From Latilactobacillus sakei (GTDB taxonomy: Bacteria > Bacillota > Bacilli > Lactobacillales > Lactobacillaceae), in contig CP025839.1 in the NCBI GenBank assembly GCA_002953655.1, positions 1,054,001 to 1,118,000 on the forward strand: DNA of 64,000 nucleotides. Reading direction: 5' to 3'. Under the pieces are notes generated by a model, which was not told where the DNA came from, ran no database searches, and was given only the letters and a program-made list of their open reading frames with translations. Of this stretch, positions 5,015-63,595 are shown one piece after another (position 1 is the stretch's first letter; each line of letters starts with the position of its first letter). Made by a program: the position numbers and the translations under genes.

Positions 5015-5130
5015 AGTGCGACGTCAGATGGTCATACGCTGAGGATTAGTCTAATACCGTGAATGAGCGGCGTAGCCGATCGTTTGCGGTATGTAACTAA
5101 CCGGAAGCGTATATCTGACGGAGCACGTTT
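5015..5130 (+). repeat. Structured dispersed repeat, copy A
   Basis: This is a full copy of the ~117-nt family. It starts AGTGC directly after the tautomerase TAA and ends GCACGTTT. It folds as nested stems: GTGC/GCAC (5016-5019 with 5123-5126), CGTCAGAT/ATCTGACG, ATACG/CGTAT, GG(A)TTAG/CTAACC, ATACCG/CGGTAT and an apical CGGC-GTA-GCCG. The conserved hinge text is CTGAGGATTAG, GTGAATGAGCG and CTAACCGGAAG. The function is unknown. Confidence 0.85.
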
Positions 5131-5247
5131 AGAGTGCGTTTAAAGCGATTTGACTCTGAGCATTAGCACAGTGTTGCGAATGATCGACAAAGTCGATTGT
5201 TTGCAATACGAAACTAAGCACAAGAGTCAGCTTTAAAAAGCACGTTT
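5131..5247 (+). repeat. Structured dispersed repeat, copy B (tandem to A)
   Basis: Copy B abuts copy A in the same orientation. Its outer stem sequence is different (TTTAAAG/CTTTAAA, GACTCT/AGAGTC), and the inner stems become GC(A)TTAG/CTAAGC and TCGAC-AAA-GTCGA. Pairing is kept while bases change, which is compensatory covariation. Hinge words such as CTGAGCATTAG and GAATGA are kept. Confidence 0.83.
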
Positions 5248-5254
5248 CAGCCAT

Positions 5255-5292
5255 CAAAAAAGCGATTCGACTAAACTGTCGAATCGCTTTTT
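5255..5292. terminator. Bidirectional terminator between repeats A/B and the HAD phosphatase
   Basis: AAAAAAGCGATTCGAC (5256-5271) pairs with GTCGAATCGCTTTTT (5278-5292) around a six-base loop. A and T runs on both sides serve the tautomerase transcript (plus) and the HAD gene (minus). Confidence 0.9.
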
Positions 5293-5293
5293 G

Positions 5294-6103
5294 TTAGCCC
5301 ATTTTAAAATATTGGCGTAAATAATTCGCCACACCATCTTGTGCGTTGGTTAGTGGGGTAATATCATCTGCGATTGCTTTGACTGGTGCGATCGCATTTT
5401 GCATCGCCACCCCAGTGCCGGCATAGGCCAACATGTCTAAGTCATTACTTTCATCACCAAAGGCGATAATGTCGGCTTGATCAATTTGGTAATGATTTGC
5501 TAAGCGTTCAAGACCCGTTGTCTTTTGGATGCCGTGGTGCACAATTTCTAAGACGCTGGCGGGGCCACCCCATGTATTAACGGAAACTTGGGGGAATTGG
5601 CGTAAAATTTCAGCCCGTAAAGCAGCTTGGTCCTCGCGTTCGACAAAGACCGTTACAGCTGCTGGATCTTGTTGCAGTGATTCCCGCGTTAGGATTTCAT
5701 CTGATTTGAGCGTTGCTGGGAAAAATGAAAAAGTATTGCTGTAAGCTTGATCAGCTAAAAACATTGTTTTTCCTTCAGCAGCAATCATCTGAATTTTAAA
5801 ACGTTCTTTTAATTGGAAGAGGCTAAAAACGACGTCCTTATTAATGGTATATTGATATTCGTCGGACCAATTTTGCCCAGGAATATGCATGAGGGCGCCG
5901 TTAAAATTGACCATCGGTGAAGTGAGTCCTAATTGATGATAGAAAGGTTCACTCAAGCGATTAGGCCGACCAGTCACAATGCTGACAATGTGGCCAGCTG
6001 ATTGTAGTTGGGTGAGTGTTTCTTGTGTTTTAAGTGAAATTTTAGCTTCTGGATTTAAAGTCGTGCCATCCAGGTCTAGAGCGATTAATTTTTGGTGCAT
6101 CAT
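5294..6103 (-). CDS. Cof-type HAD family IIB phosphatase
   Basis: This is a haloacid-dehalogenase phosphatase of the Cof/YidA type, acting on phosphorylated sugars or cofactors; the substrate cannot be read from sequence. Motif I is DLDGT with catalytic Asp10 and Asp12. Motif II is the SIVTGR segment, and motif IV is GDESNDLDML near residue 215. The length (269 aa) is normal for the type IIB cap. A GAGGAGG site precedes two adjacent ATG codons, either of which could be used. It is a single gene with its own promoter region. Confidence 0.88.
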   Translation of the reverse strand: MMHQKLIALDLDGTTLNPEAKISLKTQETLTQLQSAGHIVSIVTGRPNRLSEPFYHQLGLTSPMVNFNGALMHIPGQNWSDEYQYTINKDVVFSLFQLKERFKIQMIAAEGKTMFLADQAYSNTFSFFPATLKSDEILTRESLQQDPAAVTVFVEREDQAALRAEILRQFPQVSVNTWGGPASVLEIVHHGIQKTTGLERLANHYQIDQADIIAFGDESNDLDMLAYAGTGVAMQNAIAPVKAIADDITPLTNAQDGVANYLRQYFKMG

Positions 6104-6173
6104 AGGGCCTCCTCTAAAGGGTACTTAAGCTATCATTCTAGGGATAAACGATTCAATTGTCAATCAACCTGTA

Positions 6174-6202
6174 TTGTATCTAAAGCGGTTAAACAGTATA
6201 AT
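6174..6202 (+). promoter_or_regulatory. Sigma-70 type promoter of the SufT/PaaD-like gene
   Basis: TTGTAT (6174-6179) and TATAAT (6197-6202) are separated by 17 bp, upstream of a GGAGG ribosome site and the ATG at 6235. Confidence 0.7.
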
Positions 6203-6234
6203 AAAGCTATTGAAATAGCGTAGGAGGCAGTCAG

Positions 6235-6582
6235 ATGGCAGATGAAGAAATGAACACGCAACAAGACGATTCAGCAATCGAAGATTTAAAAGAACGGATT
6301 TTAGCGGCGCTAGAAACCGTCATTGATCCTGAATTGGGGATTGATATTGTTAATCTAGGCCTTGTCTACGGTCTTAACCTAGATGAAAAGGGCCTATGTA
6401 CAATCGATATGACGTTGACAACGATGGGCTGTCCTTTAACAGACGTCTTAACGGATTCAATTCATCAAGCACTTGCAAAGGTCCCAGAGGTCAAAGATGT
6501 GAAGGTTAATCTCGTTTGGTATCCGGCTTGGGACACCAGTAAGATGTCACGGTATGCACGAATTGCCTTAGGGATTCGTTAA
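6235..6582 (+). CDS. DUF59/SufT-PaaD-like iron-sulfur assembly factor
   Basis: This 115-aa member of the MIP18/DUF59 family is linked to iron-sulfur cluster maturation. The family signature DPELGIDIVNLGLVY starts at Asp31. The conserved Cys66 lies in the TTMGCPLTD loop, followed by VKVNLVWYPAW. An acidic tail of about 15 residues precedes the domain. The gene has a clear promoter and terminator of its own and no suf genes next to it. The biochemical role is inferred from the family. Confidence 0.88.
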   Translation: MADEEMNTQQDDSAIEDLKERILAALETVIDPELGIDIVNLGLVYGLNLDEKGLCTIDMTLTTMGCPLTDVLTDSIHQALAKVPEVKDVKVNLVWYPAWDTSKMSRYARIALGIR

Positions 6583-6594
6583 TCCGATTCGTAT

Positions 6595-6630
6595 GAGCCG
6601 CCTCCTTTAACTTGAATGAGGCGGTTTTTT
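6595..6630 (+). terminator. Rho-independent terminator after the DUF59 gene
   Basis: CCGCCTC (6598-6604) pairs with GAGGCGG (6618-6624), followed by a run of six T residues. Confidence 0.85.
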
Positions 6631-6649
6631 ATGTTATTTAGTCTAAGAA

Positions 6650-7447
6650 ATGAGTGGAATAATGACCCAAGAAACCTACCTAGCACAGTTAAAGCAAAGT
6701 GCCATCTTTTTTAAAAAGATACCGCAACTGACGGCACAGTTTCAAGCGATTGAAGCAAGTTTAGTACGCTTACAGCAAAAACAGTTACCACAACACAATC
6801 TCCCAGTGCTCGGGATTGACGAATCACTCTATCTAACGTTATTATTGGCAGCAGAGCAGGGCCAGTTCAAGGCGGTCTCTTCACAGCAATTACAAGCACA
6901 AATTCAAAAGACGGACCATTTACTTCGGAATTATCGCCAATATTTGCAAAATCAATTCGGTATGTGGGCTTATATTAGTCAGGATTTAACGGATAGTCTG
7001 GTGCAACAGTTTCCTAATTGGCGTTTTTTGGAAATCATGGCCGGTAACGGCTATCTGAGCGCCGGTTTAAAGGCGGCAGGTGCTCGGCAGGTTATTTGTA
7101 CGGATAGTTTGGCCTGGACGAGCGAAAACCAAACAGGACGCCAATTATTGACGCAAGTAGCTCCCCTCGATGCACAAGCAGCGATTGAACAATATGGTAA
7201 TCAAGTGGATGCCGTGTTAATGTCGTGGTCGCCCAATGGTGTGCCGATTGATTTGGCTGTCTTAAATCAACTGCGACAATTAGAAAAGGGACCCGTGCTT
7301 TTGTGTTTGGGTGAGCGCTATGGTGCCACGAATAGTACTGAGTTCTGGGATGCCGCTCATTTTCATAATGATCAACGCTTATCGCGAGTTAATCGCTATT
7401 TACGGCCATTTGATTTAATGCGTGATCGGTTTTATTGGATTCAATAA
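6650..7447 (+). CDS. Methyltransferase-like protein, SAM-binding fold
   Basis: The first ~120 residues are predicted helical with no recognised motif. Next comes FLEIMAGNGYLSAGLKAAGA (from about residue 126), which resembles the glycine-rich motif I of class I SAM-dependent methyltransferases, then an acidic CTDS at the position of motif II. A typical NPPY or DPPY motif is absent; the expected place reads LMSWSPNG, so the target is unclear and activity is uncertain. A second ATG at 6662 with a better placed GAGTGG could be the real start. The next gene starts about 20 bp downstream, behind an AAGGAGG, so they form an operon. Confidence 0.72.
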   Translation: MSGIMTQETYLAQLKQSAIFFKKIPQLTAQFQAIEASLVRLQQKQLPQHNLPVLGIDESLYLTLLLAAEQGQFKAVSSQQLQAQIQKTDHLLRNYRQYLQNQFGMWAYISQDLTDSLVQQFPNWRFLEIMAGNGYLSAGLKAAGARQVICTDSLAWTSENQTGRQLLTQVAPLDAQAAIEQYGNQVDAVLMSWSPNGVPIDLAVLNQLRQLEKGPVLLCLGERYGATNSTEFWDAAHFHNDQRLSRVNRYLRPFDLMRDRFYWIQ

Positions 7448-7469
7448 CGTATCAAGGAGGAATCAGCGT

Positions 7470-8435
7470 TTGCGTTTAAAAAAATTAGTGCTTGATGTGC
7501 TATTTGTCGGGGTAGTCGTCTTAGGACTACTTGTCATTAGTCAGCGAGCCAAATCGATGTACAGTGAACGACTTAATCATAATAGTTTATCGCAAAAGGC
7601 GGTTATCTTTAAGACGAAAAGTCACCAATCGATTCAATCAACGATCCAAGCGATTGATCAGACAAAACTCAATAATTTTCAAGTGCAATTCAATGTTAAT
7701 AATCATTTATCGTATGTTTATGCCAAGGGTAAACAAGCTAATGTGCCGCTTAAAGACGGCCGCTTCTTCTCAAATTATGATTTCAAATCACGAATTCCGG
7801 TAGTGGTCGTTGGCCAATCACGGGTCAACGAACTCTATCAACCAGCTAGTCAAGCGTATTATCAAACTAAGAATCGTTACTTGTCAGTAATTGGCGTTGT
7901 GGGTACCAATCAGACCACTTCGCTCGACCAACACGTCTTTATTTCGGCTTCACCAGAGTTCGTCTTGAACAACCGCGCCTTAAACCAGGTAACCGTGTTA
8001 GTCGATGATCAACAAATCGGGGCGCATCTTAAAGAATATCAAAAAATCTTTAAGACCAAATCAATTTCCAATTTAACGCCTAAGAACACGCCGATTATTG
8101 GGGTCAACTGGTTACGAGAAAATGGAACGGCGGCAATCATCTTGGTCTTATTAATCATGGTTGCTGGGGTGCTTAGTCATTTATTTGCACAATTAGTCAA
8201 TGGCTATCACGCTCAAAAGAATTTAACCGCTAGTCTTTACCGTAAATATAGCGGAGGGCAAACGCAAATTTTCGCGGTGCATCTTTTAAGTATGACACTG
8301 ATTGGTTTTATTATCGGCAGTTGGTTCTTCTACTTAACCCACTTGGGCCTTATCTTCAGTGGGTTAGTGGTAGTGGACTTGATTTTAATTGCTTATTTTT
8401 ACTTTAGAATGACCCGCCTTAAATCAGCGCACTAA
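7470..8435 (+). CDS. Membrane protein resembling a half FtsX/MacB permease
   Basis: A TTG start at 7470 is preferred because a perfect AAGGAGG lies 9 bp before it. The frame is open further up to an ATG at 7422, but that would overlap the preceding gene. The product (~321 aa) has one N-terminal membrane segment, an extracytoplasmic domain with the DGRFFSNYDF and VVVVGQSRVNELY pattern seen in MacB-type permeases, then three C-terminal membrane segments. This is the layout of one FtsX-like half without the usual duplication. No ABC ATPase lies nearby, so the partner is unknown. The family assignment is an inference from topology. Confidence 0.65.
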   Translation: MRLKKLVLDVLFVGVVVLGLLVISQRAKSMYSERLNHNSLSQKAVIFKTKSHQSIQSTIQAIDQTKLNNFQVQFNVNNHLSYVYAKGKQANVPLKDGRFFSNYDFKSRIPVVVVGQSRVNELYQPASQAYYQTKNRYLSVIGVVGTNQTTSLDQHVFISASPEFVLNNRALNQVTVLVDDQQIGAHLKEYQKIFKTKSISNLTPKNTPIIGVNWLRENGTAAIILVLLIMVAGVLSHLFAQLVNGYHAQKNLTASLYRKYSGGQTQIFAVHLLSMTLIGFIIGSWFFYLTHLGLIFSGLVVVDLILIAYFYFRMTRLKSAH

Positions 8436-8474
8436 AAAAGCAAGTTAGTTGTGAGACAACTGACTTGCTTTTTT
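8434..8474. terminator. Bidirectional terminator between the FtsX-like gene and fni
   Basis: AAAAAAGCAAGT and ACTTGCTTTTTT enclose a second stem (TAGTTGT/ACAACTG). The arms carry A and T runs on both sides. Confidence 0.88.
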
Positions 8475-8478
8475 GTAT

Positions 8479-9528
8479 TTAGAATGATAAATGCCGTTCG
8501 TTTAAATAATGTCGTAAATTAGGGCTTAAAATCATTGGAACTGATTGGAGTGCTGTTAAGTTTGCTGCACCCAACATCGCCATAATCGCTTGAATTTGAG
8601 CTTGCCAAGCTAATAATTGTTCGGCAGTTTCAGTAGGCCCCGTTTTGAGTAGCATGTGTAAAATCTGACCTGAAATCCCAACGGCCGAAGCGCCAAGCCG
8701 TAATGCTTTGACGATATCTAGTGGGTTACGAATCCCACCAGAGGCTAAAATCGTTAATTCATTTTGGAAGGCCTGTGATTCAAAAAGTGATTCAACCGTT
8801 GATTGACCCCAATCACTGAGATAATCATAAGCTTTGTCTCGGCGGCGTTCATTTTCGATTGTGACAAAGTTAGTGCCACCTTTTCCGGAAACATCGATAT
8901 TGGTGACCCCAACACTTTGCAATTTAGCAATCGTTTCGGCACTCATTCCAAAGCCGACTTCCTTAATAATTACGGGGACATCTAAGTTGGCGACGATTTC
9001 GCCAATCTGGTCGAGCCAATAGAATTCACGATCGCCTTCTGGCATTACCACTTCTTGCGCGGTATTAACGTGGATCTCGAGGGCATTGGCTTGGGTCATG
9101 GCCACCGCTTTTTGCGCCACTGCTAAATCATTACCAGCACCGATATTAGCGAGGATGAAACCGGCTGGATTAAACTCACGGATGACACTAAATGTATCAA
9201 CAAGTGTCGGGTCTTTAATGGCTACGGATTGTGATCCGGTCGCCATTGGTAACCCTGTAATCTGTGCCACTTGCGCTAATTGGGCATTTAGTTTTTTAGT
9301 TTGTTGGCTTCCGCCAGTCATCCCGTTAATGTAAAAGGGGCTTTGCCAAGTGGTCCCAGCAAATTGGGTACTGATATCAACGTCGGCAATGGCTATTTCA
9401 GGTAAACTTTGATGGATAAAACGAAGCCCGTCAAAATCATTTTGACGATCTTCTTGATGAAATTTTTCTGCTAAAAAGACATGTTCATCTTTACGATGCG
9501 ATTGGATGGATTGTTTTGGTCTCACCAT
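8479..9528 (-). CDS. fni: Type 2 isopentenyl-diphosphate delta-isomerase
   Basis: This FMN-dependent enzyme interconverts IPP and DMAPP, the last step of the mevalonate pathway cluster. The protein (~349 aa) has the RKDEHVFLA N-terminal block, NGMTGGS, the ATGSQ motif, EIHVNTAQE and the C-terminal ASGGIRNPLD flavin phosphate-binding stretch. ATG at 9528 is chosen because an AGGAG lies 9 bp upstream. A TTG at 9537 in frame is only two bases from that site. The ribosome site overlaps the mvaK2 stop codon, so translation is tightly coupled. Confidence 0.95.
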   Translation of the reverse strand: MVRPKQSIQSHRKDEHVFLAEKFHQEDRQNDFDGLRFIHQSLPEIAIADVDISTQFAGTTWQSPFYINGMTGGSQQTKKLNAQLAQVAQITGLPMATGSQSVAIKDPTLVDTFSVIREFNPAGFILANIGAGNDLAVAQKAVAMTQANALEIHVNTAQEVVMPEGDREFYWLDQIGEIVANLDVPVIIKEVGFGMSAETIAKLQSVGVTNIDVSGKGGTNFVTIENERRRDKAYDYLSDWGQSTVESLFESQAFQNELTILASGGIRNPLDIVKALRLGASAVGISGQILHMLLKTGPTETAEQLLAWQAQIQAIMAMLGAANLTALQSVPMILSPNLRHYLNERHLSF

Positions 9529-9540
9529 GTTGGTCAACTC

Positions 9541-10653
9541 CTAATCTACAAGGTGAACGGCAAGGTTTAACCGTTCGATTTGATTATCACGCCATTTTTC
9601 AAAGAGTGACGTTGTATCAATTGCCCGATCAATAATCACAATTCCACAATCACCGCCACCAGCACCAGATGTTTTAGCAGCACCGCCAGCTTCTTCAGCA
9701 AGGGCGCCCATTTTCTGGAGCACGGGGGTTTCAATTGCGACGTGACTAAAATCAGCCAATTCTTGTAATAGTGCGCGATTGTGGCGCAATTCAGTTTGGA
9801 TTTGTTGTAAGTTGTTAGCTCGGAATCCAGCAACCATTTCTTCTAAGCAGGCTTTGCTAGCCTTTAAAAAGTTTTGGTAGTCGGCTTGGCGTTCCGTTTT
9901 TGCCAGGGCGATTTTATCAACCAAATGAGACGTTGAAGCAGGAGAGCCAGTCCAACCAATCAAGAGGGATAATTCAGCAGGCGGTGTCAATAACTCGATT
10001 GATAATGATGGCCAAGGAATCGCCAATAATTCGTTAAGCGTCATCGTTGGTCTAGTCTCTGCCAACCATTGCTTGTCAAAAGAGCGATAGGCAATCCAAC
10101 CACCGTAAACGCTAGCTGCAATATCCCCTAAAGAACCGTTGCCTTGTACATCAAGATGGGCAATCGCCGCGAGTTTATAGAGTTGGTCGTTAGTTAATTC
10201 GAGTTCGTAAAAAGCACAGAGGGCTTTGACTGTCGCCACTGTGACGGCTGCCGAACTACCAAGACCGTATTTTTTACCATCAGCTGAGTCTAAATCGCTG
10301 TTAACCCGTAGATGATAGATGCTTAATTTTTTACCCGCTTGGCGGGCATATTGTTCCGTTAATTTAATGGCGGATAAAATATAATGAAAGGGATTATCAC
10401 GGTTATCAAAAACCATTTCATCACCTTGTCGTTGCCAATATAAAGAATTTTCTTGGTATTGTTTTGAAACAATACTGCCGTATTCTTGACTCTCTTCAAT
10501 TGAAACTGTTACAAATTGATTCAAAGCCACAATAATAGCCGGAAAACCAGTTTCTACTACTGCGTATTCGCCAGCAATATACAGCTTTCCGGGTGCTTTA
10601 GCCGTTATCAAACCATCAGAACCTTTCACATTTAACTTATTCATTATGCTCAC
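9541..10653 (-). CDS. mvaK2: Phosphomevalonate kinase
   Basis: This GHMP-family kinase makes mevalonate 5-diphosphate. The N-terminal AKAPGKLYIAGEYAVVE, the ATP-binding KYGLGSSAAV and the C-terminal KTSGAGGGDCGI are all diagnostic. The GTG start overlaps the mvaD stop (GTGA), which implies coupling. An ATG at 10644 (MNKLNVKGSDG) is the alternative; no strong ribosome site favours either. It is the third gene of the minus-strand order mvaK1-mvaD-mvaK2-fni, which is the common order in Gram-positive cocci and lactobacilli. The mevalonate kinase and this gene are paralogous but clearly distinct. Confidence 0.95.
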   Translation of the reverse strand: MSIMNKLNVKGSDGLITAKAPGKLYIAGEYAVVETGFPAIIVALNQFVTVSIEESQEYGSIVSKQYQENSLYWQRQGDEMVFDNRDNPFHYILSAIKLTEQYARQAGKKLSIYHLRVNSDLDSADGKKYGLGSSAAVTVATVKALCAFYELELTNDQLYKLAAIAHLDVQGNGSLGDIAASVYGGWIAYRSFDKQWLAETRPTMTLNELLAIPWPSLSIELLTPPAELSLLIGWTGSPASTSHLVDKIALAKTERQADYQNFLKASKACLEEMVAGFRANNLQQIQTELRHNRALLQELADFSHVAIETPVLQKMGALAEEAGGAAKTSGAGGGDCGIVIIDRAIDTTSLFEKWRDNQIERLNLAVHLVD

Positions 10654-11624: not shown

Positions 11625-11646
11625 AGTGATAACTCCCAATTGTTGT

Positions 11647-30576: not shown

Positions 30577-30953
30577 TTTGTAAATCTTGAGTAATCGCGG
30601 TCTACATCAGTAGGCTGAGGAAGGTCCATGCCCGCACAGGCTGAGATGCTTGTAGTGTTCGTGCCTGGCCCAATAAGCCAGGGTACCTTAACGGTAACGG
30701 CGGAAAAAGCGCTAAAACTTCGGTCATGCGTTAATATCCTTAAATAGTGCCACAGTGACGGAGCGTTTGGGGAAACCCAAACGATGGAACGAGGTAAACC
30801 CCGCGAGCGAGTAACCCAAACTTTGGTAGGGGCGTCTCATTTATGGAAATGAACTAAAAATGAGAGTTCGTAAGAACAGATAGATGATTACTGAAGGAAC
30901 TTTCTTCCTGGGGAAGTTCTGGAACAAAACATGGCCTATAGAGGTTTACAAAC
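30577..30953 (+). ncRNA. rnpB: RNase P RNA, type B (Bacillus type)
   Basis: The catalytic RNA of RNase P matures tRNA 5' ends. Conserved parts in order are GAGTAATCGC, GAGGAAGGTCCATGC, GCTGAGATGC, TAGTGTTCGTGCC, GTGCCACAGTGACG, GGAACGAGGTAAACCCC with GCGAGCGAGTAACCC, TTTGGTAGGGG, AGATAGATGATTACTG and GGAACAAAACATGGCCTATAG. Helix P1 forms between GTAAATCTT at the 5' end and AGAGGTTTAC at the 3' end. The ends are set by that helix and may be off by a few bases. Its place between gpsB and the THUMP methyltransferase is the Bacillus order. Confidence 0.95.
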
Positions 30954-44629: not shown

Positions 44630-45586
44630 TTAATCAAAATCATAATCGCTGTCGTTCATGGCTTCAACGTTCCCCAAGCGGTAACCATTCCCAACTTGTG
44701 AGAAGAAATCATGGTTCGCTGTTGATGTTGACATTCCGTTTAAGACAACTGGGTTCACATCTTCAGCAGTATCTGGGAAGAGGGCGCCTTGTCCTAAGTT
44801 CATTAGGGCCTTATTGGCGTTATAACGGAGATAAGTTAAGACTTCTTCCGTCCAGCCAGTGCCATCGTAAACTTCGTGGGTATACTTTTCTTCATTGGCA
44901 TAGAGATCATAGAGTAAATCGTACATCCAGTTTTGTAGTTCTTCTTGTTCAGCTTTTGTTAATTCGTTAAAGCCGAGTTGGAATTTATAACCGATGTAAG
45001 TGCCATGAACAGATTCATCACGGATGATCAACTTAATGATTTCAGCAACGTTGGCCAATTTGTTGTTCCCTAAGTAATAAAGAGGGGTGTAGAAACCAGA
45101 ATAGAAGAGGAATGTTTCTAAGAAAACACTGGCAATCTTTTGTTGGAGCGGTGAGCCATTTTGATAGATACTGTTAATTTTATTGGCTTTATATTGTAGG
45201 TATTCGTTAGTATTCGTCCAGTCAAAAATTTCATCAATTTCATTAGGCGTATTTAGCGTTGAAAAGATTGATGAATAACTCTTGGCATGCACTGATTCCA
45301 TAAATTGGATGTTATTCAAAACAGCTTCTTCATGCGGTGTTCTGATATTGGCTTTTAAGCTCGCCATACCGTCTTGTGATTGCAGCGTATCAAGTAGCGT
45401 TAAGCCCCCGAAAACGTGACCCACAATCCATTTTTCATTGTCTGGTAAACTCCGCCAGTCATCTAAATCATTTGAAAGGGGAATTCGTGTATCTAACCAA
45501 AATTGTTCGGTTAGTTTTTCCCAAGTCGCTTTATCGATTTGATCTTCAACTTGATTCCAATTAATTGCATGATAATTTTCTGTCAT
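44630..45586 (-). CDS. nrdF: Class Ib ribonucleotide reductase, beta subunit
   Basis: NrdF carries the metal-tyrosyl radical that starts ribonucleotide reduction. Asp66, Glu97 and His100 (ESVH) are ligands, with Tyr104 the likely radical site. The second EXXH lies in RDESVHGTYIGY. The 318-aa length fits. It is the last gene of nrdH-nrdE-nrdF but is separated from nrdE by 291 bp holding two structured repeats. An AAAGGAG ribosome site precedes the ATG. No nrdI gene, which encodes the flavodoxin for the manganese form, is in the window. Confidence 0.95.
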   Translation of the reverse strand: MTENYHAINWNQVEDQIDKATWEKLTEQFWLDTRIPLSNDLDDWRSLPDNEKWIVGHVFGGLTLLDTLQSQDGMASLKANIRTPHEEAVLNNIQFMESVHAKSYSSIFSTLNTPNEIDEIFDWTNTNEYLQYKANKINSIYQNGSPLQQKIASVFLETFLFYSGFYTPLYYLGNNKLANVAEIIKLIIRDESVHGTYIGYKFQLGFNELTKAEQEELQNWMYDLLYDLYANEEKYTHEVYDGTGWTEEVLTYLRYNANKALMNLGQGALFPDTAEDVNPVVLNGMSTSTANHDFFSQVGNGYRLGNVEAMNDSDYDFD

Positions 45587-45636: not shown

Positions 45637-45754
45637 GAACGTGCTTTTAATTGGCAGCTTCCTGTACCTAGCCACATCAGTTAAATCACCGACTTTGGCG
45701 GTAATCCGCCTGACTGAACTAGTGCTCGGAAGCTAACCACCAATTAACGCACTC
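45637..45754 (-). repeat. Structured dispersed repeat, copy C (divergent)
   Basis: Read on the minus strand, it starts GAGTGCGTT and ends AAAAGCACGTT. The outer stems TTAATTGG/CCAATTAA and AGCTTCC/GGAAGCT are perfect. Inner parts have drifted: the apical loop is replaced by GGCGG-ATTA-CCGCC, and the GAATGAGCG word is lost. It is the least conserved full copy. Confidence 0.72.
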
Positions 45755-45761
45755 TTATTTT

Positions 45762-45879
45762 GAAACGTGCTTTTTCCGACATATTCTTCCGGTTAGCTAC
45801 GCCCTGTGAATAATCGCCTTTGGCGCTCATTCACAGGCCTATGCTAATCCTCAGAATATCCCCGTCGGAAACGCACTCT
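45762..45879 (-). repeat. Structured dispersed repeat, copy D
   Basis: Read on the minus strand, this copy begins at the nrdE stop codon (TAG then AGTGCG). Its stems are GTGC/GCAC, TTTCCGAC/GTCGGAAA, ATATTCT/AGAATAT, GG(A)TTAG/CTAACC, CCTGTGAAT/ATTCACAGG and CGCC-AAA-GGCG. The hinge words CTGAGGATTAG, GAATGAGCG and CTAACCGGAAG match copy A, while most paired bases differ. Confidence 0.85.
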
Positions 45880-48049
45880 AGATAACACAGCTTTCACATG
45901 CATTTGCGCCGACTTCGTTTTCGTCGTCCGTGTATGTGCGGATATAGTAGATTGATTTAATACCTTTGTGGTGTGCGTAGTTTCTGAGGATGTTAAGATC
46001 TCGAGTCGTCATCTTATCGGTACGACCATCTTTCCAGTCATATAAGCCAGCTGGAATCGTTGAACGCATGAAGAGCGTCATACTCATCCCTTGATCAACG
46101 TGTTTTTGTGCGGCCGCATAGATGTCGATCACTTTACGCATGTCAATGTCGTAAGCTGATTCATAATAAGGCATTGTTTCATTTGATAGGCCTGGTGCTG
46201 GATAGTAAATTGTCCCAATTTTCTTTTCTTGGCGATCTTCAACGCGATTGACGATTGGTTGGAGACTAGCTGAAGTATCGTTGATATATGAAATTGAGCC
46301 ATTAGGCGCAACCGCGAGTCTATTTTGATGATATAACCCGTCTTGCATAACGGCTTCTTTCAAGGCGGCCCAGTCTGCTTGGGTTGGGATGAAGACACCG
46401 TCGAATAGTCCTTTGACTTTAGCCGTCTTAGGGGCCCATTCAGTATTCAAGTATTGATCAAAGTAACTACCGTCAGCATACTTACTGTTTTCAAAGTTGT
46501 CAAAAGTAATCCCACGTTCTTTCGCAATCTTATTTGAAGCAACTAATGTCCAGTAGTTCAATAACATAAAGTAATTGCTAGTAAAGTCGATTGATTCTTC
46601 TGAACCGTACATCATTTGGTTCTTAGCGAAGTAGGTATGCAAGCCCATGCCGCCTAAGCCGATTGTGTGGGCTAATTGGTTACCATGTGCCACCGAAGGG
46701 ACCACATCGATATCAGAATGATCGGTCACATAAGTTAATGAACGAACCATCGTTTCAATTGAATGCCCGAAATCAGGAGCGGCCATCATGTTCGGGATAT
46801 TAGTTGAACCTAAGTTACAGCTAATATCAGTTCCTAACACGTCATATTCTTGGCGATTGTTAATTTGAGAAGGCGTTTGTACTTGTAAGACTTCAGAACA
46901 AAGGTTACTCATGATAATTTTACCGTCAATTGGGTTGGCTTTATTAGCCGTATCGATATTCACGATATAAGGGTAGCCTGATTCTTGTTGGAGCTTACTA
47001 ATTTCATTTTCTAAATCACGGGCTTTGATTTTCGTTTTCTTAATCGCATCGTTAGCCACTAAGTTGTCATATTCAGCCGTAATATCGATATATGAGAAAG
47101 GTTGGCCGTACTCACGTTCAACACTATATGGACTAAAGAGATACATATCAGCGTCTTCTTTGACTAATTCATAGTACTTATCTGGCACTGTTAAGCCGAG
47201 TGAGAGGGTCTTTAACCGATATTTTTCATCCGCATTCTCTTTTTTAGCGCCCAAGAAAGCCACAACGTCTGGATGGAAAACGTTCAGATAAACGACACCA
47301 GCGCCTTGACGTTGCCCTAATTGGTTAGAATAAGAGAATGAATCCTCTAATAATTTCATAACAGGTAAAACGCCACTTGCCGCACCGTCGATACCTTTAA
47401 TTGGATCACCAGCACCACGCAAGTTAGACAAGCTAATCCCGACGCCACCGCCAATTCGTGATAATTGGAGGGCCGAGTTGATGGTCCGGCCAATGGCATT
47501 CATATCGTCGGTTGTTTGCAATAAGAAACATGATACTAATTCACCACGGCGTGAACGACCGGCATTTAAGAAGGTCGGCGTCGCTGGTTGGTAACGTTGG
47601 TGGATCATTTCATCAGCAACACTCATTGCGAGCTCTTCGTCACCATCCGCAAAATAAAGTGCGTTGGTGAAGACCCGGTCTTTAAAGTCTTCTAAGTAAA
47701 AGCCGTTATCATTTGTTTTAAGGGCGTATTGCGCATAAAACTTATAAGCCGCCATAAAAGATTTAAAATGAAAGTCTTGATCGATTAAATATTGATTCAA
47801 GCGTTCCATAAAGTCGATTGAGTAGGCCTTTAGAAAATCCGCTTCGTAATAGTTTTCAGCCACCATGTAATCCAAGCGATCTTGTAGTGATTTAAAAGTC
47901 ACCATGTTGGGTTGCACATTTTGTTCTAAAAAGGCTTCTAGTGCTTCTTGATCCTTTTGAAGGGGGATTTGACCGTTAACCGGAATGTTAATTTGGTTAT
48001 TCAATTCATAATAAGTTACGTTTTCAGTTTTAATCTCTTTTAAAGACAT
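45878..48049 (-). CDS. nrdE: Class Ib ribonucleotide reductase, alpha subunit
   Basis: NrdE is the catalytic subunit that reduces ribonucleoside diphosphates. Conserved parts include the active-site stretch RRGELVSCFLL, SRIGGGVGISLSNLRG, the NLCSEV cysteine and the C-terminal redox pair CESC (residues 718 and 721), which is recharged by NrdH. The N-terminal activity domain is short, as in class Ib. The length is 723 aa. It lies about 125 bp after nrdH. The stop codon runs directly into repeat copy D, so translation of nrdF depends on a transcript through that structure. Confidence 0.96.
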   Translation of the reverse strand: MSLKEIKTENVTYYELNNQINIPVNGQIPLQKDQEALEAFLEQNVQPNMVTFKSLQDRLDYMVAENYYEADFLKAYSIDFMERLNQYLIDQDFHFKSFMAAYKFYAQYALKTNDNGFYLEDFKDRVFTNALYFADGDEELAMSVADEMIHQRYQPATPTFLNAGRSRRGELVSCFLLQTTDDMNAIGRTINSALQLSRIGGGVGISLSNLRGAGDPIKGIDGAASGVLPVMKLLEDSFSYSNQLGQRQGAGVVYLNVFHPDVVAFLGAKKENADEKYRLKTLSLGLTVPDKYYELVKEDADMYLFSPYSVEREYGQPFSYIDITAEYDNLVANDAIKKTKIKARDLENEISKLQQESGYPYIVNIDTANKANPIDGKIIMSNLCSEVLQVQTPSQINNRQEYDVLGTDISCNLGSTNIPNMMAAPDFGHSIETMVRSLTYVTDHSDIDVVPSVAHGNQLAHTIGLGGMGLHTYFAKNQMMYGSEESIDFTSNYFMLLNYWTLVASNKIAKERGITFDNFENSKYADGSYFDQYLNTEWAPKTAKVKGLFDGVFIPTQADWAALKEAVMQDGLYHQNRLAVAPNGSISYINDTSASLQPIVNRVEDRQEKKIGTIYYPAPGLSNETMPYYESAYDIDMRKVIDIYAAAQKHVDQGMSMTLFMRSTIPAGLYDWKDGRTDKMTTRDLNILRNYAHHKGIKSIYYIRTYTDDENEVGANACESCVI

Positions 48050-48524: not shown

Positions 48525-48532
48525 CTGTTTGC

Positions 48533-51613: not shown

Positions 51614-53287
51614 ATGTCAGATATTCAAATCGCACAAGCAAATGAAGCTACAGAAATGAAGCCCATTACAGCAATTGCCGAACAAATCGGGTTACAGGCC
51701 ACCGATATTGAACAATATGGGCCTTACAAAGCAAAACTTAACTTTCAAGCTATCAATCGGTTAAAAGAAAAAGAAGATGGCAAACTCGTTTTAGTCACTT
51801 CGATTAATCCAACCCCAGCCGGCGAAGGGAAGTCGACCGTTACTGTTGGGTTAGGGGACGCCTTACGCCAACTTGATCAATCAGCAGTGATTGCCTTACG
51901 TGAACCTTCATTAGGCCCTGTCATGGGGATGAAGGGGGGCGCAACTGGTGGCGGTTATGCCCAAGTCGTACCAATGGCTGATATTAATCTGCATTTTACC
52001 GGTGACATGCACGCCTTAACGGCCGCTGTAAATACCCTAGCAGCCTTAATTGATAACCATCTACAACAAGGAAATGTTTTAAACATTGATCCTAGACGGA
52101 TTATCTGGAAACGCGCACTTGATATTAACGATCGCGCTTTACGCCAAGTCGTGATTGGCTTAGGTGGGCCAGTACAAGGGATGCCAAGACAAGATGGCTT
52201 TGATATTACCGTTGCCAGTGAATTAATGGCGATTCTTTGTTTAGCAACCGACATTACCGACCTTAAAAACCGGATTAGTAAAATCGTGATTGGCTACAAC
52301 TATGATCGCGAACCTGTAACTGTTGGCGACTTAGAAGTCACTGGGGCCATCGCCATGTTATTAAAAGATGCGCTCAAACCGAATATGGTTCAAACCTTAG
52401 AACATACCCCAGCACTCGTGCATGGTGGTCCATTTGCTAATATTGCCCACGGCTGTAACAGTATCTTAGCGACTCAAACAGCCTTGAAATTAGGCGATAT
52501 TGCCATTACTGAAGCTGGTTTTGGCGCTGATTTAGGCGCTGAAAAATTCCTTGATATCAAGGTACCGCAATTAGGAAAAACACCAGATACCATCGTGATT
52601 GTCGCAACTATCCGTGCTTTGAAGTACAACGGTGGGATGGCCTTAGCTGATTTAACCACTGAAAACTTAACCGCTTTAAAAGCGGGTTTCAGTAATTTAG
52701 CCAAACATATTACTAATATGCAACGCTACGGTGTCCCCGTTGTGGTATCAGTTAACGAATTTACAAGCGATACGGCTGCCGAAGTCCAATTACTACAAGA
52801 TCTTTGCCAAGCCATGGACGTCACTGCGGTCCCAACCAGTGTTTGGGCTAATGGTGGTCAAGGCGGGGTTGAACTCGCCAAAGCGGTCTTAGAAGCCTTA
52901 CAACAACCTAAGGCCTTCAAACCACTATATGACCCACAAGCTGACATCAAGTCTAAGTTAACAACCGTTGTGACCGAAATTTACGGTGGCCGCGACGTTG
53001 TGTTCGAAGGCAAAGCGATCAATCAATTAAAACAAATTGAAAAAAATGGGTGGGCGCACTTACCCGTCTGCATCGCCAAAACGCAATATTCATTATCAGA
53101 TGATCCTAAAGCACTTGGTGCACCCAGCAACTTCACTATCCACGTCCGCGAATTGATTCCAAAGCTCGGGGCCGGTTTTATCGTCGCAATGACTGGTGCT
53201 GTCTTAACGATGCCCGGACTCCCTAAGAAACCAGCCGCCCTCAACATGGATGTCACTGCAGATGGGCAAATTAGTGGCTTATTCTAA
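51614..53287 (+). CDS. fhs: Formate-tetrahydrofolate ligase
   Basis: This enzyme makes 10-formyl-tetrahydrofolate from formate, ATP and tetrahydrofolate, feeding purine and fMet-tRNA synthesis. The P-loop [14 protein letters not shown] is near residue 66, followed by [23 protein letters not shown] and DINLHFTGD. The C-terminal [15 protein letters not shown] equivalent reads [16 protein letters not shown]. The 557-aa length fits. It is a single gene; a candidate -10 TATACT lies at 51575-51580. AAAAGGAG precedes the ATG. Confidence 0.96.
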
Positions 53288-53365: not shown

Positions 53366-53392
53366 GTTAATCAGTATGAATAGGAGGCAACC

Positions 53393-54746: not shown

Positions 54747-54771
54747 CAAACCGCGAGTTATCAACTATGAT
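54743..54771 (+). promoter_or_regulatory. Promoter of the pyr operon
   Basis: TTGACA (54743-54748) and TATGAT (54766-54771) are exactly 17 bp apart. The start is expected near 54778, giving a 145-nt leader before pyrR. Confidence 0.82.
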
Positions 54772-54786
54772 TATCACAACTTAATA

Positions 54787-54907
54787 GAAACCTTTAATTT
54801 CAGTCCCGTGAGGCTGAGAAGGCACGGTGAATTAATCCATTAGACTAGGACTCTAGGACTAGACTCAAACTGTAACCTCTCAACCAATATCGGTTGAGAG
54901 GTTTTTT
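54787..54907 (+). promoter_or_regulatory. PyrR-responsive transcription attenuator in front of pyrR
   Basis: The PyrR-binding hairpin has CCCGTG/CACGG arms and the loop GAGGCTGAGAAGG (54804-54828). It is followed by a terminator AACCTCTCAACC/GGTTGAGAGGTT with a T run (54874-54907). In the known mechanism, UMP-bound PyrR stabilises the anti-antiterminator and lets the terminator form, lowering pyr expression when pyrimidines are plentiful. Confidence 0.88.
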
Positions 54908-54922
54908 GTTGGAAGGAGTGTC

Positions 54923-55468: not shown

Positions 55469-55483
55469 AGCTAGAACCGTTTA

Positions 55484-55600: not shown

Positions 55601-55642
55601 ATCGCCATTATCACTTAATGATTAATTATCGGAGGTCTTCAT

Positions 55643-57857: not shown

Positions 57858-57868
57858 GGGTCTGCAGT

Positions 57869-59158
57869 ATGTATCGACTTATCCAAAATGGTCAACTATT
57901 AATTGACGATCAACTCGTCAAAAGAGACATCGCGATTGATGAAAAAGGACGGATCACTGCGATTGAAGCGCATATCACACCGAGCGACGAGCCAGCCGAA
58001 ACCATTTTTGACGCGCAAGGTGCACTTGTAAGTGCCGGGTTAATTGATGGACATGTCCATTTCAGAGATCCAGGTTTCACCGATAAAGAAACCCTCCAAA
58101 CAGGTAGTCGGGCTGCGGCTCACGGGGGTTATACGAGTGTCATTGCAATGCCGAACCTCAACCCAGTACCTGATAAGCTAGCTGATTTCAAAACGTTAGT
58201 TGCCCGGAACCAAACGGAAACCACCGTCCATACGTATCAATTCGCGCCAATCACCGGCGATTTAGTCAATAACAATCTGGTTGATATGCCGGCTTTCAAA
58301 GCAGCCGGTGCCGCCGGTTTTACCAATGATGGTCACGGTGTGCAAGACGCCCAAACAATGTACCTCGCCATGCAACAAGCAGCCGCAATTAAGGCGCCAA
58401 TTGTCGCACACGTTGAAGATATCTCGCTAGTCAACGGGGGTGTTATTCACGACGGTAACGCAGCCAAACGTTTAAACGTTCCTGGTATTCCAAGTGTGAG
58501 TGAATCCGCTCAAGTGGCGCGCGATATCGAACTCGCTCGTGCAACCGGCGTTCACTATCATATCTGCCACATTTCAACTAAGGAAACCGTGGCACTTGTC
58601 CGCCGCGCTAAAGCAGATGGTGTCAATATCACCTGCGAAGTCACCCCACATCATCTTTTACTCGACGATCGTTCAATCATCAGTGACGATGCCCTGTTAA
58701 AAATGAATCCGCCCCTCAGAACGTTAGCAGACCGTCAAAGCCTCTGGGCAGGTCTGATGGATGGCACAATCGACGTGATTGCGACCGATCACGCACCACA
58801 TACCGCGGCTGAGAAAAGTCAGTCGTTATTACAAGCACCATTTGGTATAGTAGGGAGTGAAACAGCCTTCAGTTTACTCTATACACACCTAGTCGTTAAT
58901 GGCCCCTTTAGCTTAGCGCAATTATTAGCTAAAATGACGACCGTTCCGGCGCAGGTTTTCAATCTACCCGCAGCCGGTCAACTACGCGTTGGCGACCAAG
59001 CCGATATCGCTGTTTTTAACCTGACACAACCCACTACTATTCAAGCAACCGACTTCCAATCTAAGGGCCACAACACACCATTCATCGGTGAAACGGTACT
59101 TGGCGGTACAGAATTAACCCTAGTTGCCGGTCAAGTTGCTTATCAAAGGAGTAAATAG
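57869..59158 (+). CDS. pyrC: Dihydroorotase (class I, PyrC)
   Basis: PyrC cyclises carbamoyl aspartate. The metal-binding DGHVHFRDPG is near residue 60. Asp in TNDGHGVQ holds the position used for metal binding in class I enzymes, and His ligands follow in VAHVED and CHIST. The catalytic Asp is in ATDHAPHT near residue 308. The 429-aa length fits. It begins 11 bp after pyrB. Confidence 0.95.
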   Translation: MYRLIQNGQLLIDDQLVKRDIAIDEKGRITAIEAHITPSDEPAETIFDAQGALVSAGLIDGHVHFRDPGFTDKETLQTGSRAAAHGGYTSVIAMPNLNPVPDKLADFKTLVARNQTETTVHTYQFAPITGDLVNNNLVDMPAFKAAGAAGFTNDGHGVQDAQTMYLAMQQAAAIKAPIVAHVEDISLVNGGVIHDGNAAKRLNVPGIPSVSESAQVARDIELARATGVHYHICHISTKETVALVRRAKADGVNITCEVTPHHLLLDDRSIISDDALLKMNPPLRTLADRQSLWAGLMDGTIDVIATDHAPHTAAEKSQSLLQAPFGIVGSETAFSLLYTHLVVNGPFSLAQLLAKMTTVPAQVFNLPAAGQLRVGDQADIAVFNLTQPTTIQATDFQSKGHNTPFIGETVLGGTELTLVAGQVAYQRSK

Positions 59159-59161
59159 CTT

Positions 59162-60238
59162 ATGAAACGTTATCTCATTTTAGAAGACGGCACCGTCTTT
59201 AGCGGTTTTGGCTTTGGTGCACCTACCATCTCAACTGGTGAAATTGTCTTTAACACCGGTATGAGTGGTTATCAAGAAACCATTACAGATCAATCCTACA
59301 ACGGCCAAATTATTGCTTTTACATACCCATTAATCGGCAATTATGGCGTTAACCGCGATGATTTTGAATCAATTAAACCCACCTGTAAAGGGGTGGTCGT
59401 TCATGAAGTCCCACGCTTAGCTAATAACTGGCGGATGAACATGAGCCTTGACGACTTTTTAAAACAAAAGAAAATACCCGGTATTTGGGGCATTGATACG
59501 CGGGCTTTAACGCGCCGCTTACGGGATAAAGGCACGATGAAAGCCAGCATCGTGGATGCCGCCGACGATCATGCTTTTGATCAATTAAAAGCTTTGGTAT
59601 TACCTAAAAATCAAGTCCAGCAAGTATCAACGGCTAAACCATATCCTAGTCCTGCGACTGGTCGCAATATCGTGGTGATTGACTTCGGCTTGAAGCATAG
59701 TATTTTACGCGAATTATCAAAACGTAACTGTAATTTAACCGTCCTACCTTATAATGCGACTGCTGAAGAAATTCTCAGTCTCGATCCAGACGGCGTCATG
59801 TTAACCAACGGCCCTGGGGATCCAGAAGACGTCCCCGAAGCAATCGAAATGATTCGGGGCATTCAAGGCAAATTACCAATCTTTGGGATTTGTCTGGGCC
59901 ACCAGTTATTCGCACTCGCTAACGGGGCTAAAACCTACAAAATGAAATTTGGTCACCGCGGTTTCAACCATCCCGTTCGTGAAATTGCCACTAACCGGAT
60001 CGATTTCACATCACAAAATCACGGTTTCGCCGTTGATGCGGACTCAATCGACCCCCAACAACTATTAGTGACCCATATTGAAATTAATGACCACACTGTC
60101 GAAGGACTCCGTCATCGTCAGTACCCAGCATTTTCCGTTCAATTCCATCCAGATGCAGCACCTGGTCCACACGATGCTGTCCACCTATTTGATGAATTCA
60201 TTGACATGATTGATGATTTTAATCGCCGCCAAAAATAG
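59162..60238 (+). CDS. carA: Carbamoyl phosphate synthase small subunit
   Basis: This glutaminase subunit supplies ammonia to CarB. The N-terminal domain begins [19 protein letters not shown]. The class I amidotransferase domain has the nucleophile Cys in GICLGHQ (near residue 244) and the His/Glu pair in [13 protein letters not shown], where the last part is slightly unusual (PDAAPG instead of PEASPG). The length is 358 aa. Being inside the pyr cluster, it is the pyrimidine-specific copy (pyrAa). Confidence 0.95.
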
Positions 60239-60255
60239 AAAAAGGGGATTTAGTG

Positions 60256-63200
60256 ATGCCAAAAAGAACCGATATTCGTAAAATTTTAGTCATTGGCTCC
60301 GGTCCAATCGTGATTGGTCAAGCTGCCGAATTTGATTACTCAGGAACCCAAGCCTGTCTTGCACTTAAAGAAGAAGGGTACCAAGTGGTGCTCATCAACT
60401 CAAACCCTGCGACGATTATGACTGATAAAACAGTTGCTGACACGGTTTATATCGAACCAATCACGCTTGATTTTGTCACGCAAATTTTAAGAAAAGAACT
60501 GCCCGATGCAATCTTACCAACCCTTGGGGGTCAAACCGGCTTAAACATGGCCTTAGAACTCGCTAATTGTGGGATTCTTGCTGAACTCGATATCGAATTA
60601 CTTGGGACAAAATTAAGTGCCATCGATCAAGCAGAAGATCGGGAATTATTCAAGAACTTGATGAACCAACTCAATGAACCCATCCCGGAATCAGCGATTG
60701 CGCACTCATTAGCTGATGCACAAGAATTTGTAAAACAAAATGGCTTCCCCGTCATTATTCGCCCGGCCTTCACACTTGGTGGGACAGGCGGTGGGATTGC
60801 CGAAAACGCGGGCCAACTTAAAATAATCGTCAAAAACGGGATTGCATTATCCCCAGTTGGTCAAGTCCTTGTTGAACAAAGCATTGCGGGTTACAAAGAA
60901 ATCGAATTTGAAGTGATGCGTGATCGCAACGACAACGCCTTAGTCGTCTGCAACATGGAAAACTTCGACCCCGTCGGTATCCATACTGGTGATTCAATTG
61001 TCTTTGCCCCAGTTCAAACATTAAGTGACCGCGAAGTGCAAATGCTTCGGGACGCTTCATTAAAAATTATCCGGGCTTTGAAGATTGAAGGGGGCTGTAA
61101 CGTTCAATTAGCCCTTGATCCTAACAGCGAGCGCTACTTCATTATCGAAGTTAATCCTCGGGTGAGTCGCTCATCAGCTTTAGCCTCAAAAGCAACCGGT
61201 TATCCGATTGCTAAGATGGCCGCTAAAATTGCGGTTGGTTTAACACTCGACGAAATCTATAACCCAATTACCGGGACCACTTACGCGCAATTCGAACCGA
61301 TGTTAGATTACGTCGTTGCCAAGATTCCCCGTTGGCCTTTTGATAAGTTCAATAAGGGTGACCGTCAATTAGGTACCCAGATGAAAGCGACTGGCGAAGT
61401 CATGGCGATTGGCCGGAACATCGAAGAATCACTCCTAAAAGCCGTTCGCTCACTTGAAATCGGCACAGCCCACCTTGAATTAGCAGGTTTAACCAGCGTC
61501 AGCGACAACGATTTGGTCCAACGGATTATTCATCCGCAAGATGACCGCCTTTTCTACCTCGCAGAAGCATTACGACGAGGCTATCTCATTCAGGAATTAG
61601 CTGAATTAACGAAAATTGATTTATTCTTCTTAGATAAGATCAGCCACATCGTTGAACTAGAAGAACAACTCCGTAGTCAAAAAGGCGACGTCGAATTACT
61701 CGAAATCGTTAAGAAAAACGGCTTTTCAGACGAAAAGATTGCTAAGACTTGGCAAATCACGCCAATCCAAGTGCGCCAAATGCGCCAAGAAAGTGGCATT
61801 CAACCCGTCTATAAGATGGTTGACACTTGTGCCGCCGAGTTTGAATCACAAACCCCTTATTACTACGCGACCTACGAACAAGAGAATGAAAGTTTAGTGT
61901 CCGTTAAACCATCAATCTTAGTCATCGGTTCTGGCCCCATTCGGATCGGTCAAGGGGTCGAGTTCGATTACGCAACCGTCCACTGTGTACAGGCCATTCA
62001 AAAGGCTGGTTACGAAGCAATCATCATGAATAGTAATCCAGAGACGGTTTCTACCGATTTTTCAATCTCCGACAAGCTTTACTTTGAACCATTAACACTC
62101 GAAGATGTTTTAAACGTCGTCGAACTAGAAAAACCAGAAGGCGTTATCGTTCAATTCGGGGGTCAAACAGCGATTAACTTAGCTGCACCACTTGAAGAAA
62201 ACGGCGTTAAGATCTTAGGGACGAGCGTTGCCAACTTAGACCGCGCTGAAGACCGTGATTTATTCGACCAATTAATTCAAGAATTGAATATTCCTCAACC
62301 TGTTGGTAAAACAGCAACCAACGCCCCTGATGCATTAACGATTGCAAGTGAGATTGGTTATCCCGTCTTAATTCGGCCTAGTTTCGTCTTAGGCGGCCGG
62401 GCAATGGAAATTGTGCATACGCCAGAAGACTTAACTCACTATATGCAAGAAGCCGTTAAGGTCTCAGACGAACATCCAGTCTTAATCGATCGTTACTTAA
62501 TGGGTAAAGAATGTGAAGTCGATGCTATCTGTGACGGTCAAGAGGTCTTAATTCCAGGCATCATGGAACATATCGAACGGGCCGGCGTCCATTCAGGCGA
62601 TTCAATGGCCGTTTATCCACCACAAAACCTCACAGAAGATCAAAAAGCAGCAATTATCGACTACACCACTAAACTCTGTCTTGCACTCGATTGTCATGGT
62701 TTGTTGAATATCCAATTCATCATTCAAAATGACGAAGTTTACGTCATCGAAGTCAACCCGCGTGCTAGCCGGACAGTGCCATTCTTAAGTAAAGTTACTC
62801 AAATCCCAATGGCACAACTTGCAACCCAATTAATCTTAGGTAGCACCTTAGCTGAATTGAAGAGCCCAACTGGTTTATTACCCGCCGGGCCACTCATCCA
62901 CGTGAAAGCACCAGTTTTCTCATTTTCAAAACTAACCCGCGTTGATAGTCTCTTAGGACCTGAAATGAAATCAACCGGGGAAGTGATGGGCACAGATGTC
63001 ACGATGCAAAAAGCACTTTATAAAGCCTTCGAAGCTAGTGGCATGCATTTGCCCAGTCACGGTAACGTCTTAATGACAGTCACGAACCAAGATAAAGCCC
63101 AAGCACTTGCTTTAACAAAACGCTTTAGAGAAGTCGGTTACCAAATCATTGCAACACCCGGAACGACACAACAATTTAAAGCAGCGGGCATTCCAGTCCA

Positions 63201-63438
63201 ACAAGTCGACAAGATCAACGCCACTTCAGGCGACTTACTCGACAAGATTAAGGCCGGCCATATCCAACTGGTCATCAATACAACCGGTTTAAACGAAGCA
63301 CCCCAAGTGGCTAAAGACAGTATTGTCATTCGCCAAACCGCTATTGAACACGGCATTCCATTATTAACATCGCTCGATACAACGGATGCCATTTTGACAG
63401 TCCTAGAATCCCAATCACTCCTCACAAAACCACTATAA
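60256..63438 (+). CDS. carB: Carbamoyl phosphate synthase large subunit
   Basis: This large subunit has two homologous ATP-grasp halves and a C-terminal MGS-like domain. The repeats are visible as [18 protein letters not shown] near residue 12 and [17 protein letters not shown] near 555, and as [12 protein letters not shown] and [12 protein letters not shown]. The length is 1060 aa. ATG at 60256 lies 7 bp after AAAGGGGA; the preceding GTG is an alternative. Repeat copy E begins 4 nt after the stop codon. Confidence 0.96.
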
Positions 63439-63440
63439 AG

Positions 63441-63556
63441 GAAGTGCGTTCAAACTGATTATATTCTGAGCATTAGCCTAATACTGTGAATGAGCGACAG
63501 AGTCGATTATTTACGGTATGTTGCTAAGCACAGAAGTTAGTTTCAAAAAGCACGTT
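63441..63556 (+). repeat. Structured dispersed repeat, copy E
   Basis: This full copy follows carB by two bases. Stems are GTGC/GCAC, TTCAAACT/AGTTTCAA (one mismatch), TTCTG/CAGAA, GC(A)TTAG/CTAAGC, ATACTGT/ACGGTAT and CGAC-AGA-GTCG. Hinge words CTGAGCATTAG and GTGAATGAGCG are kept. Confidence 0.85.
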
Positions 63557-63560
63557 ACAA

Positions 63561-63595
63561 AGAAGTGCGTTCATACTGATTGTATTCTGAACATT
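63561..63595 (+). repeat. Structured dispersed repeat, copy F, truncated
   Basis: Only the 5' arm (AGAAGTGCGTTCATACTGAT and TGTATTCTGAACATTA) is present. It runs into the hairpin that follows. The text is close to the start of copy E, which suggests a tandem duplication with loss of the 3' part. Confidence 0.75.

Follow-up and report, generated by a model that had tools for sequence, protein, structure and literature searches.

The 64,000-nucleotide (nt) stretch of Latilactobacillus sakei contig CP025839.1 analysed here (positions 1,054,001 to 1,118,000; the window) carries several copies of a repeat, each of which is one long imperfect hairpin of about 114 nt (about 105-122 nt across the family). 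As judged from their sequence, these copies belong to a mobile-like hairpin family of the sense strand which probably works as RNA at the 3' end of cistrons, on the messenger RNA (mRNA) of the upstream gene. The family is a dispersed hairpin repeat without an Rfam family at the thresholds searched, and the nearest described repeats are, by description, the EFAR/Efa elements.

Fold, covariation and strand

An earlier note on the window had described five full copies and a truncated one and had proposed that compensatory changes preserve their fold. All five full copies are present, at coordinates correct to within 2 nt (copies A to E, Table 1), the truncated copy is seen by eye, and the stem words quoted in that note are found in the sequence. 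Each window copy folds with a z-score between -6.3 and -9.0, which 0 of 200 dinucleotide shuffles equal, and 30 copies from the window's own genome (G000), aligned without structure, show two-sided changes in 32 of 43 pairs. Covariance models were built from 30 copies of G000 (R1) and, as a second model, from 55 matches (R2); alignment A2 omits one locus, L007, because its match to the strict pattern begins in a second end further upstream.

Selection on a single-strand fold is supported in three alignments, drawn from the own genome, from genera of the same family and from other families of the order. Covariation lies far above shuffled controls, which give no exact probabilities because the alignments were fitted to the model and the copies are related by descent: in the own genome (138 rows) 94.8% of the cells are paired compared to 69.5% after shuffling, with a covariation of 0.684 compared to 0.225; among relatives, chiefly of other genera within the family, 55 copies (five of them from congeners) give 96.9% compared to 67.4% and 0.809 compared to 0.228, with two-sided changes in 39 of 43 pairs; and in other families of the order (48 rows, 45 distinct) they are 90.6% compared to 53.8% and 0.828 compared to 0.187. 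It was in such larger alignments that the claim of compensatory change had, by the earlier note's own account, been open to refutation. When the partner is shifted by one to three columns, pairing falls to 33-45% (34-45% in the 138 rows of the own genome).

Read from 5' to 3', the element begins with an A-rich flank often ending in AG, followed by A GTGYG, a variable stem, a G-N-U-U bulge, a second variable stem, a G-A / A internal loop with a GC pair and a bulged A, a UUAG-type stem, a 3x3 loop and a variable apical stem, from which it returns to GCAC GTT. The unpaired core is conserved, namely the G-N-U-U bulge, the G-A / A internal loop, the bulged A, the outer A and the 3' GUU, and the unpaired bulges and loops are retained across families. 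A strict pattern of the ends, AGTGCG N{90,115} AAAGCACGTT, has 38 matches in the genome, compared to 0 when read backwards. When the termini were examined for inverted repeats, a GTGC/GCAC pair was found near the ends, and the outermost letters (A...GTT) are not inverted.

The mismatches that occur within the stems are strongly skewed, as G-U and A-C stand at 518:93 in the own genome, 159:13 in the family relatives and 79:12 in the other families, and at 294:87, 110:10 and 79:12, respectively, once columns rich in G-U are omitted. This excess of G-U over A-C indicates a constraint on the sense strand. At the five window copies, the antisense strand scores 19.5 to 33.6 bits with R1, compared to 93.5 to 117.4 bits in sense.

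Position behind stop codons and proposed role

The 88 arrays in G000 comprise 62 single, 15 double, eight triple and three quadruple ones, sizes which are lower bounds, as a later search of the same stretches gave 136 distinct rows. Most arrays (73 of 88) lie in sense behind the upstream open reading frame (ORF), 31 in convergent and 42 in co-directional gaps, and 60 of these 73 begin 0-9 nt past the stop codon. In a test against uniform placement within the gap, from which six of the 73 sense arrays were left out as they overlap a neighbour, 57 of 67 arrays were located at 0-9 nt while 6.1 were expected, and the maximum reached in 100,000 simulations was 18. TGA was the stop codon in 0 of 56 ORFs of at least 120 amino acids with an element 0-11 nt behind them, compared to 24 of 245 others (p 0.011). 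All three sites in the window start 0-4 nt past the stop codon, in sense, and are followed either by the next gene of the cluster or by a separate terminator-like hairpin. Among the 55 matches from family relatives, tandem followers included, 25 lie in sense within -15 to 12 nt and 12 in sense further off, and a manual count over the 48 rows from other families (with two duplicates and tandem followers included) gave 16 that are near and in sense.

The stop-adjacent position, the sense strand and the conserved core suggest that the element acts at the 3' end of the cistron, and RNA is a simpler reading than single-stranded DNA since most copies are in sense and behind genes. Comparable positions have been described for other bacterial repeats, among them the Efa elements of Enterococcus faecalis and EFAR, with Efa-1 and EFAR presumably being the same element. 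Efa elements are stated to favour positions near the 3' end of coding sequences, and preliminary, unpublished stabilising effects are mentioned in the same source (PMC1590033); EFAR is listed among the miniature inverted-repeat transposable elements (MITEs) (PMC3733652). They share with the present family that they are dispersed structured repeats of the same bacterial order, and the copies of E. faecium type could be EFAR, a comparison made by description and not by sequence. Efa-1, however, is described as a 163-nt element with two stem-loops side by side (PMC2267715), whereas the element studied here is one hairpin of about 105-122 nt and occurs in 17 of 40 sampled genera of the Lactobacillaceae. 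By these descriptions, the Latilactobacillus family is possibly kin to enterococcal EFAR. Repetitive extragenic palindromic (REP) sequences of Escherichia coli located within 15 nt of a stop codon reportedly cause ribosomes to stall and the mRNA to be cleaved, nrdAB being one case named (PMC12306157), and are thus stop-adjacent hairpins that occur at nrdAB there and at nrdE-nrdF here. REPs measure 20-40 base pairs (PMC3733652), in contrast to about 114 nt here, and the present element further differs in its conserved core, its mostly sense orientation and the absence of a detectable Y1 domain in G000. The bcr1-bcr18 repeats of the Bacillus cereus group are similarly intergenic and in part MITE-like, and the mRNA of two B. 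cereus strains contained 84 of 165 and 62 of 155 bcr copies (PMC3446304); compared by description, they differ in that a placement 0-9 nt behind stop codons is not among the bcr traits described in the excerpted text of that paper.

Based on the position at the 3' end and on these REP, Efa and bcr precedents, we consider control of the upstream cistron at the mRNA level most likely, by a route through the ribosome, through decay or both. The hairpin would be transcribed and either be bound by a protein or act on the terminating ribosome and on exonucleases, and it might thereby determine how stable the upstream cistron is and how much it yields, as well as the ratio between the cistrons of operons such as nrdE-nrdF. 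The element may spread in trans or by ectopic recombination, and its copies may persist next to stop codons since they are harmless or useful there. If this holds true, one structured RNA absent from Rfam is carried in more than 100 copies by each genome of food lactobacilli and is also met with in enterococci and other Bacilli, in many cases at a fixed position behind stop codons. The family would then represent a case for how repeats become mRNA regulators of the 3' end and for effects of stop-adjacent hairpins on ribosomes and decay outside E. coli, and the precise placement raises the question of how a repeat finds, or is kept at, the ends of reading frames.

Several observations weigh against this reading. 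Of the 88 arrays, 15 are not in sense behind the nearest upstream ORF (12 are antisense in co-directional gaps and three lie in divergent gaps), and nine of the 73 sense arrays are 44-284 nt away from the stop codon. The upstream ORF is on the other strand in 17 of the 55 matches from relatives, with one further match lacking an upstream ORF, and on the opposite strand in 14 of the 48 rows from other families by manual count. The neighbouring ORFs were called crudely, longest first and with at least 60 amino acids, without a trained gene finder. At the nrdE-nrdF site, one of 56 named loci carries a match, and a weak one (21 bits, L. graminis). Finally, single-stranded DNA of the same strand would pair similarly, and action at the RNA level is deduced from the sequence.

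Turnover, mobility and competing explanations

Pairs of copies that are 97% identical occur at unlinked sites with unlike flanks, and the sites differ between close relatives. In the congener G093, which is 91-95% identical to the 64 kilobases of the window with one stretch at 84%, a different single element is present at sites A/B and C/D, and site E holds only a left half that ends at the same point as the truncated window copy. In the more distant G062 (68-81% identical), A/B and C/D are occupied, as are three further sites which are empty in G000, at about window positions 53286 (behind fhs), 59152 (pyrC-carA) and 25026. At 53286, the stop codon TAA of G000 corresponds to TAG plus element in G062 with the same last residues, and at pyrC-carA the G062 element alters the end of PyrC (both by eye). 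At the site of copy A, the G062 copy matches it with 99.1% identity, the flanking DNA being about 81% identical. By eye, L. fragifolii and L. graminis carry short remnants at A/B and C/D, and L. fuchuensis is empty at C/D; R1 gave no copy at E <=0.001 on the corresponding stretches of these three species. Among named records, those very near the window excepted, they are the closest in nrdE, at 91-92% over 200 residues. Between species, copies have been acquired, lost and exchanged. Such poor conservation of the sites makes it unlikely that the element has a strictly required function at particular genes, and the dispersal and turnover of the copies make the family mobile-like.

Such behaviour would also be expected of a purely selfish element whose sense hairpin is read as single-stranded DNA by a recombinase or transposase, so that compensatory changes keep a DNA fold and the position at stop codons reflects target choice or tolerance. 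We regard this explanation as possible, if doubtful. The dispersed near-identical copies, the empty and filled sites and the recurring outer ends are in line with it, as is the spacing of tandem copies, since 34 of 40 same-strand neighbours within 400 nt are separated by 8-11 nt. The 3' letters of the spacers match the left flank of their own array (3.17 compared to 1.41 permuted, maximum 2.58), and as the spacers share these letters, arrays seem to grow with their leader attached. In a looser local alignment, the two flanks of an array resembled each other slightly more than permuted flanks did, both for all 88 arrays (4.97 compared to 4.52, 0 of 5000 permutations) and for the 59 arrays that remain when 29 with a downstream remnant are left out (4.75 compared to 4.38, 29 of 5000), which could reflect a short target duplication; in a strict test, however, in which the end of the left flank was sought inside the right flank, the same 59 arrays did not exceed the permuted value (1.80 compared to 1.74). 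Orientation and stop adjacency far beyond uniform placement also argue against a purely selfish element, and neither the Y1 transposase domain (PF01797) nor the reverse transcriptase domain RVT_1 (PF00078) was found in G000 with its 128 copies, in G062 or in G093, other recombinases not having been searched. PF01797 likewise gave no match in G123, G042, G153 and G232, and PF00078 none in G042, G153, G232 and G525, with 20 matches to the latter domain in G123, four in G303 and two in G233. Mobilisation by reverse transcriptase was therefore rejected for G000. The family was also compared with group II introns owing to its 5' GUGYG motif, a candidate that was dropped as enterococcal and other copies start otherwise and G000 has no reverse transcriptase domain; likeness to the motif of integron attC sites was dropped by eye, the left flank lacking a partner of the 3' GTT.

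It might also be speculated that insertion itself is directed to the ends of reading frames, the family being a mobile structured RNA targeted to stop codons. Sense placement 0-9 nt behind TAA or TAG and never TGA in 56 cases, retention of the native C-terminus at most of the small number of sites compared, and the lack of Y1 and reverse transcriptase domains in the richest genomes are the grounds for this proposal, which we nevertheless consider unlikely. The possibility that the stop codon pairs with a CTAT further downstream did not hold on inspection by eye.

That the elements are ordinary intrinsic terminators or attenuators which resemble each other by chance is highly improbable. Their position behind genes and their hairpin shape would fit, yet in the letters 3' of 128 copies T accounts for 75% at +1 and is followed by A-rich sequence, with no T run directly behind the hairpin. 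Separate terminator-like hairpins were seen by eye further downstream at many sites, copies are found inside gene clusters (between nrdE and nrdF, and between carB and the next gene), and the internal loops are conserved. At 26 of the 88 arrays, the downstream terminators have a common apical core, ACAAA...TTTGT, with variable outer stems. The 19-base core of these terminators, allowing at most one mismatch, is found at 19 places in G000, 17 in G093, seven in G062 and 0 in G123 and G525, partly away from the hairpins, and could represent a second module that is repeated in Latilactobacillus.

Equally little speaks for near-palindromes kept complementary by template-switch repair without selection on the fold. 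Template-switch correction can produce paired changes, and the antisense strand of copy A folds well, too (z -8.2), the antisense of copy E, the second one tested, being weaker (z -3.2). Such repair should, however, affect both strands equally, yet G-U exceeds A-C 5.6- to 12-fold, which argues against a symmetrical process, and unpaired bulges and loops are kept across families. Least probable of all are REP-type repeats mobilised by a REP-associated tyrosine transposase of the Y1 type: the intergenic 3' position and the proximity to stop codons do resemble E. coli REPs, and PF01797 is present in G233, G525 and G303, but it is absent from seven of ten element-bearing genomes including G000 and present in two of four genomes without an element match, and the hairpin is several times as long as a REP. 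Our preferred reading remains that of a mobile-like hairpin which would act as RNA on the upstream cistron.

Distribution of the family and its sites in the window

A covariance model, the kind of check that the earlier note had suggested, revealed the family genome-wide and in other Lactobacillaceae. In G000 (2,103,571 bases, one contig), R1 gave 135 matches at E <=0.001, 128 of which are non-overlapping after removal of seven that overlap a better match on the other strand; searching the stretches around these matches again resulted in 138 rows, 136 of them distinct. The congeners G062 and G093 have at least 148 R1 matches each. With the stricter filters used for the large scans, matches were obtained in 100 of 251 genomes in a sample of the Lactobacillaceae, in 86 of 395 genomes and 30 of 80 genera in a sample of the order with R2, including four other families, and in seven of 398 genomes in a class-wide sample with R2 (E <=0.0001), five of which belong to one genus outside the order (f17/g108). 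In G919, also outside the order, a related hairpin lies inside a larger dispersed repeat with largely shared flanks, and eight stretches (L283-L290) are nearly identical where compared.

A copy pair of G525 shares 97.7% identity with an E. faecium plasmid, which places an E. faecium-like group among the carriers. Copies occur on plasmid records of L. curvatus and E. faecium, one of them beginning about 11 nt behind a DUF2188 gene on the L. curvatus plasmid NZ_CP031004.1, and two of four L. curvatus records are typed as mobilizable; mobilizable plasmids could carry copies between species. A phage collection searched with one copy gave no match, nor did a plasmid collection searched with one copy of G515 and one of G919. 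Plasmid records CP069367-CP069369, labelled Klebsiella pneumoniae, contain copies 80-88% identical to an Enterococcus-type query and may be mislabelled or derive from mixed assemblies.

No described family had been recognised when the repeats were noticed, and Rfam 15 gave no match on the elements. Copies A to D searched at E values up to 10 yielded two weak sub-threshold matches behind copy B, in the terminator region; copy E at the gathering threshold alone gave no match, and for other families the 20 loci searched (out of 30) had none at the places of the elements. Searches of open-access literature on Lactobacillus repeats, MITEs, REPs, Listeria repeats and bcr1 turned up no description of the Lactobacillaceae family.

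Table 1. Copies of the element and associated features in the window (scores from R1; gene identities of nrdE, nrdF and carB by NCBIfam).
Feature	Position	Strand	Remarks
Copy A	5015..5129	+	102.2 bits; 0 nt past TAA (5012-5014) of 2-hydroxymuconate tautomerase-like gene (4826-5014)
Copy B	5133..5246	+	117.4 bits; tandem with A, 3-nt spacer TAG
Terminator-like hairpin plus T run, 3' of A-B array	5256..5293	+	By-eye reading; not listed by a simple scan
Copy D	45764..45877	-	114.3 bits; 0 nt past TAG of nrdE (45878-48049, -)
D-C spacer	45754..45763	-	10 nt, A-rich (from sequence)
Copy C	45638..45753	-	98.1 bits; between D and nrdF (44630-45586, -)
Copy E	63443..63556	+	93.5 bits; 4 nt past TAA of carB (60253-63438), pyrimidine gene cluster
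Truncated left half of a further copy	about 63564-63597	+	By eye; runs into terminator-like hairpin

Other long hairpin-like sequences, unlike the present element in their letters, were seen by eye directly behind nrdE at the loci L184, L189, L197, L199, L209, L211, L201 and L213, which belong to Lacticaseibacillus, Levilactobacillus and relatives, and this spot may attract several hairpin families. At the gathering threshold, the Rfam scan of the whole window returned solely a class B RNase P RNA (30583-30943, +) and a PyrR binding site (54787-54910, +), the latter upstream of the pyrimidine genes including carB, whose 3' side carries copy E.

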